Positions 49,372-53,069 of a DNA stretch of 64,000 bases are shown piece after piece. The stretch is from Novosphingobium sp. Chol11. GTDB taxonomy: Bacteria; Pseudomonadota; Alphaproteobacteria; Sphingomonadales; Sphingomonadaceae. A model generated the notes under the pieces. The model had not been told where the DNA came from. It saw nothing but the letters and a program-made list of their open reading frames with translations, and did no database searches. A program made the translations under genes and the position numbers. The stretch is taken from the NCBI GenBank assembly GCA_945906105.1, contig CAMDQO010000014.1, positions 1-64,000 of the forward strand, given 5' to 3'. Each line of letters begins with the position of its first letter. Position 1 is the stretch's first letter.

Positions 49372-50631
49372 TCAGAAACTCACCGCATTCTCGATCGGTG
49401 CATCGCCACGATGCGCCGCCGCATAGGCTTCTGCCGCGCGCAAAACCCGCATGGTGTTGCCGCTCGACAGTTTTTGCAGATCAGCCTGTGACCAGCCGCG
49501 CCGGGCGAGTTCGGTGAACAGCGCGGGATACTTGGAGACGTCTTCCAGGCCGCCCACCCCGCGTTCGATGCCATCAAAATCACCGCCAAGCCCGACGTGA
49601 TCCGCGCCGATGCGCTTGGCGATGTGATCAAGCTGATTGGCGACATCGATCAGGCTGCCGTTGGGTATCGGATTGGCCTTTTCCCATGATGCCAGCTCGG
49701 CCTTGGCCCCATCGGGATCGCCGATGTGCTGCGCCTCGATCCGCGCCTTTTCGCTGGCGCGGCGCACGTTCCAGGCGCGAGTGTCCCCCACGACATAGCC
49801 GGGGTAGAAATTGACCATCATCACCCCGCCATTGGCCTTCAACCGGTCCAGCACCGCATCAGAGGCATTGCGCGGGTGGTTGTTGAGCGCGCGGGCGTTC
49901 GAATGGCTGAAGATCACCGGCGCACCCGCCACCGCCATGGCGTCCATCATCGTCTTTTCCGCCACATGGCTGAGATCGACCAGCATCCCCAGCCGCTGCA
50001 TCTCGCGCACTACGTCCTTGCCGAAAGGGGTGAGGCCGCCCGCCTTGGGCGCATCGGTGGCGCTATCGGCCCAGGCGGTGTTCTTGAAGTGGGTCAGCGT
50101 CATGTAGCGCGCGCCCAGCGCATACATCTGGCGCAGCACGGCAAGGCTGCCGCCAATCGAGTGCCCGCCCTCCATGCCGAGCAACGAGGCGAGCTTGCCT
50201 GCCTTCAACGCCTTCGCGGTGCAGTCCGCCGTCTCGCAATATTGCATTTCGGCGGGGTACAGCGCGATCAGGCGCTTGGTCACGTCGATCTGCTCAAGCG
50301 TCGCCTGCACGGCTTGCGGCTCGGTGAGGTCAGCCGAGACATAGACCGACCAGAACTGCGCCCCCAGATGCCCTGCCTTGCTCCGCCGCAAGTCAGTGTG
50401 CATCGCGTTCATCCCTTTGGCGGCATCGGCGGTGTTAGCAGTGTCGGCAAAGTTGAACCCGGAGAGCAGGTTCTTGCGCCGATCACGCAGCTGCTCGGGC
50501 ACATCATTATGCCCGTCCCACACCGGCGCGGCGGCAAGTGCGGCCTCAGCGATCTGTTCCGGGCTGCGCGGCGCGGACGAGGCGGCGCTGGCAAGGAGCA
50601 CGGTTAGGGCCGCAAGGCTGGCGATGCGCAT
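49372..50631 (-). CDS. Exported dipeptidase (renal dipeptidase / M19 family)
   Basis: A 419-residue protein with a signal peptide (MRIASLAALTVLLASAASSA). M19 zinc-site elements: DGHNDVPEQL (His-x-Asp) near residue 37, LLGMEGGHSIGG with the bridging Glu, LVDLSHVAEK, FSHSNARALNNHPRN, and GLGGDFDG. M19 enzymes cleave dipeptides, including D-containing ones, and related members act on cell-wall peptides. AAAGGA precedes the ATG. It lies 34 bp after the lysozyme-like gene on the same strand, which suggests a cell-wall context. Confidence 0.92.
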   Translation of the reverse strand: MRIASLAALTVLLASAASSAPRSPEQIAEAALAAAPVWDGHNDVPEQLRDRRKNLLSGFNFADTANTADAAKGMNAMHTDLRRSKAGHLGAQFWSVYVSADLTEPQAVQATLEQIDVTKRLIALYPAEMQYCETADCTAKALKAGKLASLLGMEGGHSIGGSLAVLRQMYALGARYMTLTHFKNTAWADSATDAPKAGGLTPFGKDVVREMQRLGMLVDLSHVAEKTMMDAMAVAGAPVIFSHSNARALNNHPRNASDAVLDRLKANGGVMMVNFYPGYVVGDTRAWNVRRASEKARIEAQHIGDPDGAKAELASWEKANPIPNGSLIDVANQLDHIAKRIGADHVGLGGDFDGIERGVGGLEDVSKYPALFTELARRGWSQADLQKLSSGNTMRVLRAAEAYAAAHRGDAPIENAVSF

Positions 50632-50665
50632 GGAAGTCCTTTCGGGAAACGGCAACATAGTGGCA

Positions 50666-51877
50666 TCAAGCAAAGGCTATATCACCCGCTTCGGCAAGCA
50701 ACTTCAACATCACCGCCCCACCGCACTGCTGCGAAATGGCACTGGCACTGAACTTGCCATCGGCAACATATTTGCCGCGATCATAGGCAGTGGTGAAGCT
50801 CCACAGGTAGGGTGAGGTGCGCCCCATGCGGCGATAGCCAAAGCCATTGAACGCCTCTAGCCGGTGGAGAATGCGCGGCACCGACCAGTCTTGCGCTCCG
50901 GCAAAGCCCATGATCCGCAGTGCATCAATCGCCGAGGATTCCCAGTCGCTTGGTGGTAGCCAACGGGTCGGGCGACCGGCGGGCACCTGCCGTGTGCGGC
51001 GTTGCAAGGGAAAATCGCCGTTGTGCAGATGGGCGCGAAAATTGAAGCTTGCCTCCAGCCCATGCACCGTGGCGACGAAATACCACGGCACTCCGGTACG
51101 CTCGGCCACTCCCGCATAGCGCGCCTTGGACGCGCGCAGCATGGTCAGGTGCCATTCGGCAGTCTCACGGTGTTGCGCACGTATCTGCGCGGCCCTGAAC
51201 AGGCTGGCGTATTCGTCCGACAGCGCATCAAACTGCAGCGTGCGACTGACGGTGATCGGGCCTTGTAGTGGACTGGGCAGTGGATTGGGCAGTGGATTGG
51301 GCAGCGGATTGGGCAACGGAGCGGGTAATGGCTCCGGTTGCGTGTCTGGCTGAGCAAGTGTCGGCAGTTTGAGCCGTTCAGTGGCGGGCTGATCATTAAA
51401 GAACATCGGCGCGGCCAGCGCAGTGGCTTCGCTGCGAGGGGCTAGCGAATAGCCCTCAGGCGTAACATGCTGGGTGCGGTGCAGCAGGGACAGCAATTCG
51501 CCAGCGCGGTCGGCAAAACCAAGCTTGCGAAATTCGGATCGGTCTATCAGCGCGACGAGCCGCGGCAGCGCCAGTTCATAGAGCCGGTCAGGATCGAGCG
51601 GAATACCCCCTTCACCGCGTGACAATAGCGATTTGGGCAGGCGCAGGGCTTTTGCCTCCGCTTCCATAGCCAGCAATTTGCGGATGAAGCTGGCCCCTTC
51701 GAACACCTCACCGGGCAATAGCGAGATCAACGGCTCGGGCAGTTTCATGCCAAGCAACTTGTCGAGATCGCTGGTCAGCGGGCTGAACGCCGCATGCAGG
51801 GGCTGCGCACCGGCCAGTGCCGTCAGGCCAGCCAGCCCGCGTGCAATAAAACTGCGGCGATCACGCGATGCGACCAA
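50666..51877 (-). CDS. Tat-exported lysozyme-like peptidoglycan hydrolase candidate
   Basis: A 403-residue protein. The N-terminus SRDRRSFIARGLAGLTALAG is a twin-arginine signal. A low-complexity segment of Pro-Leu repeats (PLPNPLPNPLPSPL, around 183-202) links to a C-terminal domain with WYFVATVHGLEASFNFRAHL, HNGDFPL, PAGRPTRW and LWSFTTAYDRGKYVADGKFS. I recall this set from lysozyme-fold domains in cell-wall hydrolases; Glu275 in GLEASF would be the catalytic acid. Enzymatic activity is inferred, not certain. Same strand as, and 100 bp after, the two-helix gene. Confidence 0.7.
   Translation of the reverse strand: MVASRDRRSFIARGLAGLTALAGAQPLHAAFSPLTSDLDKLLGMKLPEPLISLLPGEVFEGASFIRKLLAMEAEAKALRLPKSLLSRGEGGIPLDPDRLYELALPRLVALIDRSEFRKLGFADRAGELLSLLHRTQHVTPEGYSLAPRSEATALAAPMFFNDQPATERLKLPTLAQPDTQPEPLPAPLPNPLPNPLPNPLPSPLQGPITVSRTLQFDALSDEYASLFRAAQIRAQHRETAEWHLTMLRASKARYAGVAERTGVPWYFVATVHGLEASFNFRAHLHNGDFPLQRRTRQVPAGRPTRWLPPSDWESSAIDALRIMGFAGAQDWSVPRILHRLEAFNGFGYRRMGRTSPYLWSFTTAYDRGKYVADGKFSASAISQQCGGAVMLKLLAEAGDIAFA
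51270..51329. repeat. Five 12-bp tandem repeats inside the lysozyme-like gene
   Basis: Imperfect copies of GGATTGGGCAGT at 51270, 51282, 51294, 51306 and 51318 encode the repeating Pro-Leu-Pro-Asn linker on the minus strand. Twelve-bp units keep the frame if their number changes, so linker length may vary between strains. Confidence 0.88.
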
Positions 51878-51977
51878 CGACTCGCCCTCCTCGGGAACAG
51901 TCTATGCCGAGTGATAATCGGTTGGAAGAGCTAGCTCTGTCACCGGGCTGGCACCGCAACCCGGTGACAAAGGTAAA

Positions 51978-52232
51978 TCAGCCCTCGGCTTCACGCTCGA
52001 ATGCAGCGCCGCCACCGATCCTCGCCGCGATCCGGCCAAGGATGACGAGAATCACCACCGCCAGCACGGTTGCCAGCACCGCGTAGGAATAAAGCCCGAC
52101 CAGATCATCGCTGAAGCCCAGTTTGGCGAGTGTCGCTTTGATTGCCTCATTGCAGGCTAAGGCAGCCACCAGCCCGAGTGAGGCGGAAGCCAGCGTGATC
52201 ATGGTCTGCACCATCGCGCGTGGATCGGTCAT
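51978..52232 (-). CDS. DUF5654-like two-helix membrane protein (holin-like)
   Basis: An 84-residue protein with two hydrophobic helices (MVQTMITLASASLGLVAALA and YAVLATVLAVVILVILGRIA) separated by a short loop, with a charged C-terminal tail (ARIGGGAAFEREAEG). The pattern matches DUF5654 as I know it; size and topology also resemble class II holins. It lies 36 bp after one lysozyme-like gene and 100 bp before another, all on the minus strand. Pore formation has not been shown for the family; the holin reading is inference from context. Confidence 0.7.
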   Translation of the reverse strand: MTDPRAMVQTMITLASASLGLVAALACNEAIKATLAKLGFSDDLVGLYSYAVLATVLAVVILVILGRIAARIGGGAAFEREAEG

Positions 52233-52268
52233 ATTGAAATGTCCCCGTAAAGTGTTGAGGAGGACGGT

Positions 52269-53069
52269 TTAACCAAGCGGATGCAGCATTGCCAGAGCGA
52301 CGGCGAGTTCATCGGGATAGCGCCGTTCGACCACATTCATCAGCGTCTGCCGCACCGCCTCAGAGCTGCGCGCCGCCAGTGCCCGGACATAGGCAGCCCG
52401 GTGGCGATAGATCGCCGCGACCAGTGCGCGATCATGCTCTGCTCCGCCGCGTGCGGCTTCGGCATCAGCTTCGGCCAGAGCCTCGACCAGCAACCGCGAT
52501 GCACGGCCATGCTGGACAGCCGTTGACCACACGGCATCGCGCAGAGCATCGGCGCGGGCATCGAGATCAAAGCCGGTTTCGGCCAGCACTGCCTGCACTG
52601 CCGGGCGATAGTGGCTGCGCGCGATGAAAGCGTGCTGCGCCTCGGCAAAGGTCAGCGGCTCGCGCGCAGCAATGGCGCGCCATGCGTTAGAGAAAGCGGC
52701 GCTGCCCGGAGCATCTCCGAGTTCGGCTGCCCAACGCACACCTTCGGCCTTGAGGAATGCCGCAGCGGTACCGGTCCGGCTGGCAAGCTGGAACATGCCA
52801 TAGGACACCCCGCCCGGATCACCCTGACCTCCTGATACCGTGCCGGGTCCGCGCCCGCCGCTTTCATAATGCTCACTCAGGGTGCCGAGCTGGTGTTCTC
52901 CGTCCAGCGCGAAATGGCTCTGCCTACGATCTGTCTGCCTTCGCGCATTCTGGTCAATCGCCTTATCAAGCGCTGAGACCTCATTCTGGCTCAATCCCCG
53001 CCCTATGAGGCGGCGCACCGCATCAAATATCGTTTTGCGAACGACGCTATTGTTCATGATTTGTTCCAT
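52269..53069 (-). CDS. VgrG/phage-related lysozyme-like protein
   Basis: A 266-residue protein without a signal peptide. The core HYESGGRGPGTVSGG (Glu69 followed by Ser-Gly-Gly) with GDPGGVSYGMFQLAS matches a family of VgrG-related and phage lysins in which the glutamate is the likely catalytic acid. A second region LRDAVWSTAVQHG, with the helical tail, is typical too. The lack of a signal peptide is as in phage endolysins that need a holin. GGAGAG lies upstream of the ATG (53069). No phage structural genes are near. Confidence 0.72.
   Translation of the reverse strand: MEQIMNNSVVRKTIFDAVRRLIGRGLSQNEVSALDKAIDQNARRQTDRRQSHFALDGEHQLGTLSEHYESGGRGPGTVSGGQGDPGGVSYGMFQLASRTGTAAAFLKAEGVRWAAELGDAPGSAAFSNAWRAIAAREPLTFAEAQHAFIARSHYRPAVQAVLAETGFDLDARADALRDAVWSTAVQHGRASRLLVEALAEADAEAARGGAEHDRALVAAIYRHRAAYVRALAARSSEAVRQTLMNVVERRYPDELAVALAMLHPLG

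Follow-up and report, generated by a model that had tools for sequence, protein, structure and literature searches.

The 64,000-nucleotide stretch of the Novosphingobium sp. Chol11 genome analyzed here (contig CAMDQO010000014.1, positions 1 to 64,000; hereafter the window) contains four consecutive genes on the minus strand, between positions 49372 and 53069, that encode a muramidase without a signal peptide, a small DUF5654 protein, a Tat-type exported protein and an exported M19 dipeptidase. A previous reading of the sequence alone had delineated the same four genes in the same order, which the sequence confirms, and had likened them to a phage-free endolysin-holin module, dedicated to programmed lysis or to muramidase export. 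The locus is neither a recognizable phage remnant nor a conserved lysis cassette, and the pair of genes that is conserved consists of the muramidase and the M19 dipeptidase, not of the muramidase and DUF5654. We estimate that there is an even chance that the muramidase is a domesticated, latent cytosolic endolysin within an accessory locus of wall hydrolases on a Novosphingobium-like chromosome.

The muramidase and its N-terminal module

The muramidase (266 aa; 52269..53069, minus strand) belongs to PF21277, the VgrG3-like muramidase family (Pfam E-value 5.4e-48, 163.8 bits against the curated cut-off of 27). From residue 61 on, this protein corresponds to VgrG3 of Vibrio cholerae both by sequence and by fold (PDB 4noo, 4nso): Foldseek search with the structural model (pLDDT 89.8) retrieved 4noo with an E-value of 1.5e-7, followed by weak matches to GH46 chitosanases. 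The sequence-only reading had called the protein lysozyme-like. Two residues, E69 and D84, which we take to be the catalytic acidic residues of the PF21277 muramidases, align with E and D of 4noo and are invariant in all 11 aligned genus members, which were retrieved by a protein search that used no motif. Their invariance across a larger alignment of 45 rows is uninformative because the rows were selected by motifs containing both residues (of the 80 named loci, 20 lack the simple motif and were left out, and 44 of the other 60 were used along with the window). By reading, the protein has no signal peptide, as previously noted.

The first 54 or so residues of the muramidase are modelled as a helical hairpin (helices 2-22 and 28-54) that includes a helix-turn-helix module (approximately residues 8-45; 52935..53048, minus strand) of a family in common with phage endolysins. 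Although the match of the window to the family-wide profile of this module arises by construction, its own row being part of the alignment, a separate profile of 17 relatives that excludes the window recovers the window module with 58.1 bits. The same profile scores the endolysins of phages Kimel and TPWB-05 at 28.4 and 29.3 bits, respectively, compared to 3.9 bits for the best of 600 shuffles. In both phages, the match starts at the start codon of the endolysin, which in TPWB-05 overlaps a holin gene. Using the natural N-terminus of one relative of the muramidase (from locus L041) as the tblastn query, we identified 99 phage records, 92 of these from Acinetobacter phages (best E-value 4e-5), with an endolysin or lysozyme annotation on most of the 60 matches listed; the matches beyond Acinetobacter phages are few and mostly weak. 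A composite module query yielded 90 phage records, including 85 Acinetobacter phages, with weak similarity (best E-value 0.02). One of the phages with a module match, AP22, probably encodes LysAp22, judging from the name; LysAp22 is described as a lysozyme-like endolysin acting on Gram-negative bacteria (PMC8548769).

The module is not covered by any of the Pfam matches shown, and the PHROG matches touch merely its last few residues. Among 30 module-bearing proteins, 26 contain the Phage_lysozyme domain according to Pfam and two, one of which is the window protein, contain PF21277; the other two are the protein of L209, which has no family assignment and appears GH19-like by eye, and presumably that of L214, the frame of which is broken by reading. 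The module profile is represented in 54 of 199 genomes of the family Sphingomonadaceae (32 of 96 genera) and in 2 of 240 genomes across the class, both from this family. In phages and bacteria, the module stands in front of lysozyme-type catalytic domains from two families at the least, and might serve as a flag for hidden endolysins.

Taken through the relatives of the module, these data support an endolysin build for the muramidase, that is, a wall-hydrolase domain combined with an endolysin-type N-terminus in a protein lacking a signal peptide. The protein differs from the Acinetobacter phage endolysins (Kimel, TPWB-05, AP22), with which it shares the family of the N-terminal module at the protein start, in that the catalytic domain of the endolysins is Phage_lysozyme (in Kimel and TPWB-05) and in that those proteins are encoded in phages. 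The scanned neighbors of the muramidase are metabolic, regulatory and housekeeping genes (TauE, GMC oxidoreductase, histidine kinase and regulator, DapD, subtilase and G6PD) or are unassigned, and none of 10 neighboring genes scanned matched a PHROG from the categories of head, tail, packaging or lysis proteins, in agreement with the previously noted lack of phage structural genes. The earlier suggestion of a cytosolic lysin of the phage-lysis type is supported with respect to the endolysin build, for which both the module profile and the tblastn search with a relative argue, and is not supported with respect to the holin partner discussed below.

The catalytic domain also occurs in other architectures. 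Two relatives of the muramidase (L040:6973-8175 and L041:4088-5359) contain an extra C-terminal domain that appears peptidase-like by eye and has no Pfam name. Planctomycete-type relatives (L101, L106-L108 and L110) start with signal-like peptides, as judged by reading, and the VgrG3-like domain may be exported in these cases.

Gene order and the DUF5654 protein

Gene order was assessed in 80 of 87 named muramidase loci, the best-matching of which come mainly from Novosphingobium. Of these 80, 18 carry an M19 gene downstream of the muramidase gene in the same orientation, and in 11 of the 18 the gap, estimated by extrapolation to M19 residue 1, lies between -30 and +79 bp. Two of the 18 (L046 and L074) show early frame ends and are not among the 11 tight ones, two more (L054 and L061) have wider gaps, and three (L060, L062 and L072) accommodate DUF5654 between the muramidase and M19. 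Two further loci, L050 and L053, have DapD near the muramidase and no M19 match. Adding the window and G043 to the 18 named loci gives 20 muramidase-M19 loci, DUF5654 being present in five; the genus and named sets appear to overlap (e.g., G052 and L045) and are not summed. Within the genus, M19 was found in 37 of 59 genomes, and the flanks of 30 of the 38 M19 matches were read. In eight of these 30, the upstream gene encodes the muramidase (five loci) or a protein of the 403-aa Tat-type kind (three loci, including the window, where the muramidase lies beyond the flank); some other M19 genes are preceded by TauE or a different exported protein. The complete four-gene order was encountered only in the window, and one genome, G312, lacks the muramidase but has genes of the other three types. 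Of the gene order, the conservation of which the sequence-only reading had proposed as a check, the muramidase-M19 pair is the part that recurs.

DUF5654 (84 aa; 51978..52232, minus strand) starts 36 bp after the muramidase gene and was correctly assigned to its family (Pfam E-value 1.8e-20). It is short and has two hydropathy peaks, of which the first is modest, a build that would suit a holin. However, several lines of evidence disagree with the holin assignment. DUF5654 is missing from 15 of the 20 muramidase-M19 loci. Comparison with PHROGs and NCBIfam revealed no family at E-values up to 1, and no match was found in phage records, plasmids or viral contigs (none confirmed in the latter). 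Among 298 genomes of the family, nine encode DUF5654, one of these with a weak match, and only the window and G043 have it next to the muramidase; in the remaining seven, no muramidase is located nearby (in 1.5-kb flanks and in regions of 7 to 16 kb), and the solo DUF5654 genes adjoin etf, gcv and other metabolic genes, as named by eye. Across the class, a single genome out of 240 has a Pfam match that exceeds the cut-off, and this genome is that of the window. Furthermore, the stop codon of DUF5654 overlaps the apparent start of M19 in L060 and L062, an arrangement that suggests M19, not the muramidase, as the partner. The loci with DUF5654 between the two genes, an order present for example in Novosphingobium strain MW5, fall into two separate clades, and the muramidase tree requires at least two changes on well-supported branches, which implies repeated gain or loss. 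A search for DUF5654 in the literature library consulted turned up no paper. All considered, DUF5654 is probably not the matching pore, and the hypothesis of programmed lysis or dedicated muramidase export, which depended on a holin partner, is not substantiated; such a mechanism is possible in the minority lineages that carry the muramidase-DUF5654 pair. More generally, a lysin encoded next to a two-helix protein should not be equated with a lysis cassette until the conservation of the gene order has been checked.

The gap between DUF5654 and the gene for the 403-aa protein contains a strong predicted RNA hairpin (51935..51972, minus strand; 16-pair stem, no T-run; minimum free energy -33.8 kcal/mol, z -4.89), the sole copy within the window. 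This hairpin, which is not among the predicted terminator-like sites, may separate two transcription units, one ending with DUF5654 and the other starting with the 403-aa gene. Promoter- and terminator-like sites in the window are about as numerous as in shuffled sequences.

A proposed latent endolysin and its alternatives

From the observed protein identities, module sharing and gene-order statistics, we infer a scenario that covers the phage origin, the cytosolic latency, the substrates and the joint role of the four proteins. The first gene would be a domesticated phage-type endolysin, in which the hairpin module is fused to the VgrG3-like muramidase. Lacking an export signal, this protein would stay latent in the cytosol and would cut peptidoglycan once the inner membrane fails, whether because the cell dies, a phage attacks or some other pore opens. 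In the periplasm, the Tat-exported lysozyme-like protein would act on glycan strands and the exported M19 dipeptidase on the released dipeptides, and DUF5654 would be a small membrane protein with a different role that moves in and out of the locus. Given that we detected no signal peptide in the muramidase, no type VI secretion system (T6SS) sheath and no DUF2460 in the genome, and no conserved holin at the loci compared, a latent cytosolic muramidase appears to be the simplest view. If so, endolysins can be kept as ordinary chromosomal genes without a phage, a gene transfer agent (GTA) or a recognized holin, and the question arises what releases them and for what purpose. None of the papers listed by our literature search deals, as judged by title, with domesticated endolysins in sphingomonads. 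An endolysin of a cryptic prophage reportedly has a role in the explosive lysis of Pseudomonas aeruginosa, in line with the logic of a latent cytosolic lysin. The P. aeruginosa endolysins (PMC4834629; PaGH19Lys, PMC12329726) are likewise reported as retained in a bacterial genome, with the difference that those enzymes belong to a cryptic prophage whereas no phage genes were recognized beside the window muramidase.

Several observations weigh against a domesticated endolysin of this kind. The muramidase was found in only 15 of the 59 genus genomes. When the module of the window protein alone was compared to phages by tblastn, nothing significant was retrieved (four records with E-values of 3 to 9, one of them an endolysin), so that the link to phages goes via the relatives, and the module is absent from some muramidases with the same neighbors, such as those of G043 and L072. 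Moreover, the hairpin suggests that the muramidase and DUF5654 may form their own transcription unit in the window, and the presence of DUF5654 in two clades could reflect a real pairing with the muramidase. These last two points, along with the short distance between the genes and the two hydrophobic stretches of DUF5654, speak for an actual endolysin-holin module, in which a DUF5654 pore would give the cytosolic muramidase access to the wall, either for programmed lysis or for protein release similar to type 10 secretion. Type 10 secretion and lysis cassettes (PMC10847048, PMC10109510) similarly involve a lysin and a small membrane protein, whereas the window locus has no recognized holin and its pair is not conserved. 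Considering that most muramidase-M19 loci do without DUF5654, that most DUF5654 genes lie apart from the muramidase, that the overlap in L060 and L062 links DUF5654 to M19 and that phage resources contain no match, we regard this explanation as improbable. Slightly more improbable still is an extended version, under which bacteria of this family domesticated phage endolysins via the shared hairpin module, fixed them downstream of glnA or upstream of M19 and, in some lineages, recruited DUF5654 as a release switch, resulting in a lysis or muramidase export system independent of phages and GTAs. The competing possibility that ordinary peptidoglycan-turnover genes adjoin by chance, with the cytosolic muramidase representing a phage relic in decay, is compatible with the patchy distribution of the muramidase and with the frames that end early in L046 and L074; given the retention of E69 and D84 in the aligned genus members and the recurrence of the tight linkage to M19, we consider it unlikely.

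Two further functions have been weighed and rejected. The muramidase might be an unlinked lysis gene of a GTA. DUF2460, which we take to be part of RcGTA-type clusters and also to occur in phages, was detected in 131 of 199 family genomes. Such unlinked lysis genes are proposed for Rhodobacter (putatively, rcc00555/556; PMC3423380), and the lysis caused by the Caulobacter GTA is described as proceeding without canonical holin-endolysin genes (PMC13236601). However, DUF2460 was not found in the genome of the window, and there is no association between the module and DUF2460 (39 of 54 versus 92 of 145 genomes, p = 0.31, in a test that ignores phylogeny), which makes this function very unlikely. 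The GTA_TIM model PF13547 had no match in the 59 genus genomes and a single match, under the cut-off, in the 199 family genomes; because DUF2460 is so widespread in the latter, this model may be too insensitive for the GTAs of Sphingomonadaceae, unless the DUF2460 genes are those of prophages. The other function, injection into rival cells as a T6SS effector, would agree with the catalytic domain, which is that of the effector VgrG3. Yet, the window protein has no VgrG spike and carries a module of the endolysin family in its place, and a search for the VipB/TssC sheath component did not match the genome of the window (0 of 1, with the control matching 1 of 14, E. coli), so we assign this function hardly any likelihood.

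Exported hydrolases and lysozyme genes at other sites

The third gene (50666..51877, minus strand) encodes a 403-aa protein with a TTG start, a twin-arginine N-terminus by reading, a proline-rich linker and a C-terminal domain that is probably lysozyme-like. Pfam produced nothing above the cut-off. The model of the C-terminal domain (pLDDT 85.0) weakly resembles goose-type lysozymes and lytic transglycosylases: the best Foldseek E-value is 0.32, the best VIA match has a Z score of 7.1 (rmsd 3.5, 115 aligned), under the caution level of the tool, and the 50 fold matches listed all belong to lysozymes or lytic transglycosylases, to further hydrolases of wall or chitin, or to a T6SS effector. Of the earlier description as a Tat-exported lysozyme-like protein, the twin-arginine start holds and the lysozyme fold is matched weakly. 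Sequence searches of PDB with this family gave a best E-value of 0.11 in one case and none in the other, and a relationship with the 266-aa muramidase family was rejected by profile comparison (probability 0.3 percent). The C-terminal domain shows 34-41 percent identity to 30 sequences picked from 79 viral-contig loci, which are relatives of a PG_binding_1-containing protein from a Bradyrhizobium phage; the protein has relatives in rhizobial phages, and no close relatives were confirmed in viral contigs. Homologs are rare in bacteria, being found in 5 of 249 family genomes (one short and broken) and, by other means, in G312, G008 and G034.

The fourth gene (49372..50673, minus strand) encodes the M19 dipeptidase (Pfam E-value 8.5e-110, 367.3 bits against the cut-off of 26), in agreement with the earlier call of an exported dipeptidase. 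The open reading frame extends for 433 aa from a TTG at 50673; the ATG at 50631, which opens a signal-like peptide, is by reading the likelier start.

The N-terminal module is also encoded at a different recurrent site. In a chosen set of 20 module regions (19 from the family profile matches and G054 from the genus search), the module gene is located downstream of the glutamine synthetase gene glnA, on the same strand and within about 6 kb, in 17; of the 20 regions, 16 have a PII gene and 13 a TamB-like gene in range, the names GlnA, PII and TamB having been recognized from sequence by reading. The glnA-type regions comprise L237, L239-L247 and L250-L256 (e.g., L247:5927-6535 and L253:6096-6746); their module genes apparently encode phage lysozymes (by Pfam; G163 was outside the scan), no phage genes were recognized around them by eye, and they are seemingly fixed orphan endolysins. 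The window gene is a VgrG3-type member of the module family at a site other than glnA. In L254 (4902-5285), a gene for a protein of 127 aa that contains a hydrophobic stretch overlaps the end of the glnA-region lysozyme gene by 4 bp, and its product might act as a holin-like partner there. In L248 (6300-7486), a module protein without a Pfam family, GH19-like by eye, is overlapped by a 129-aa hydrophobic protein and lies close to a gene that looks tail-protein-like by eye, and these two overlapping genes are probably the lysis pair of a prophage.

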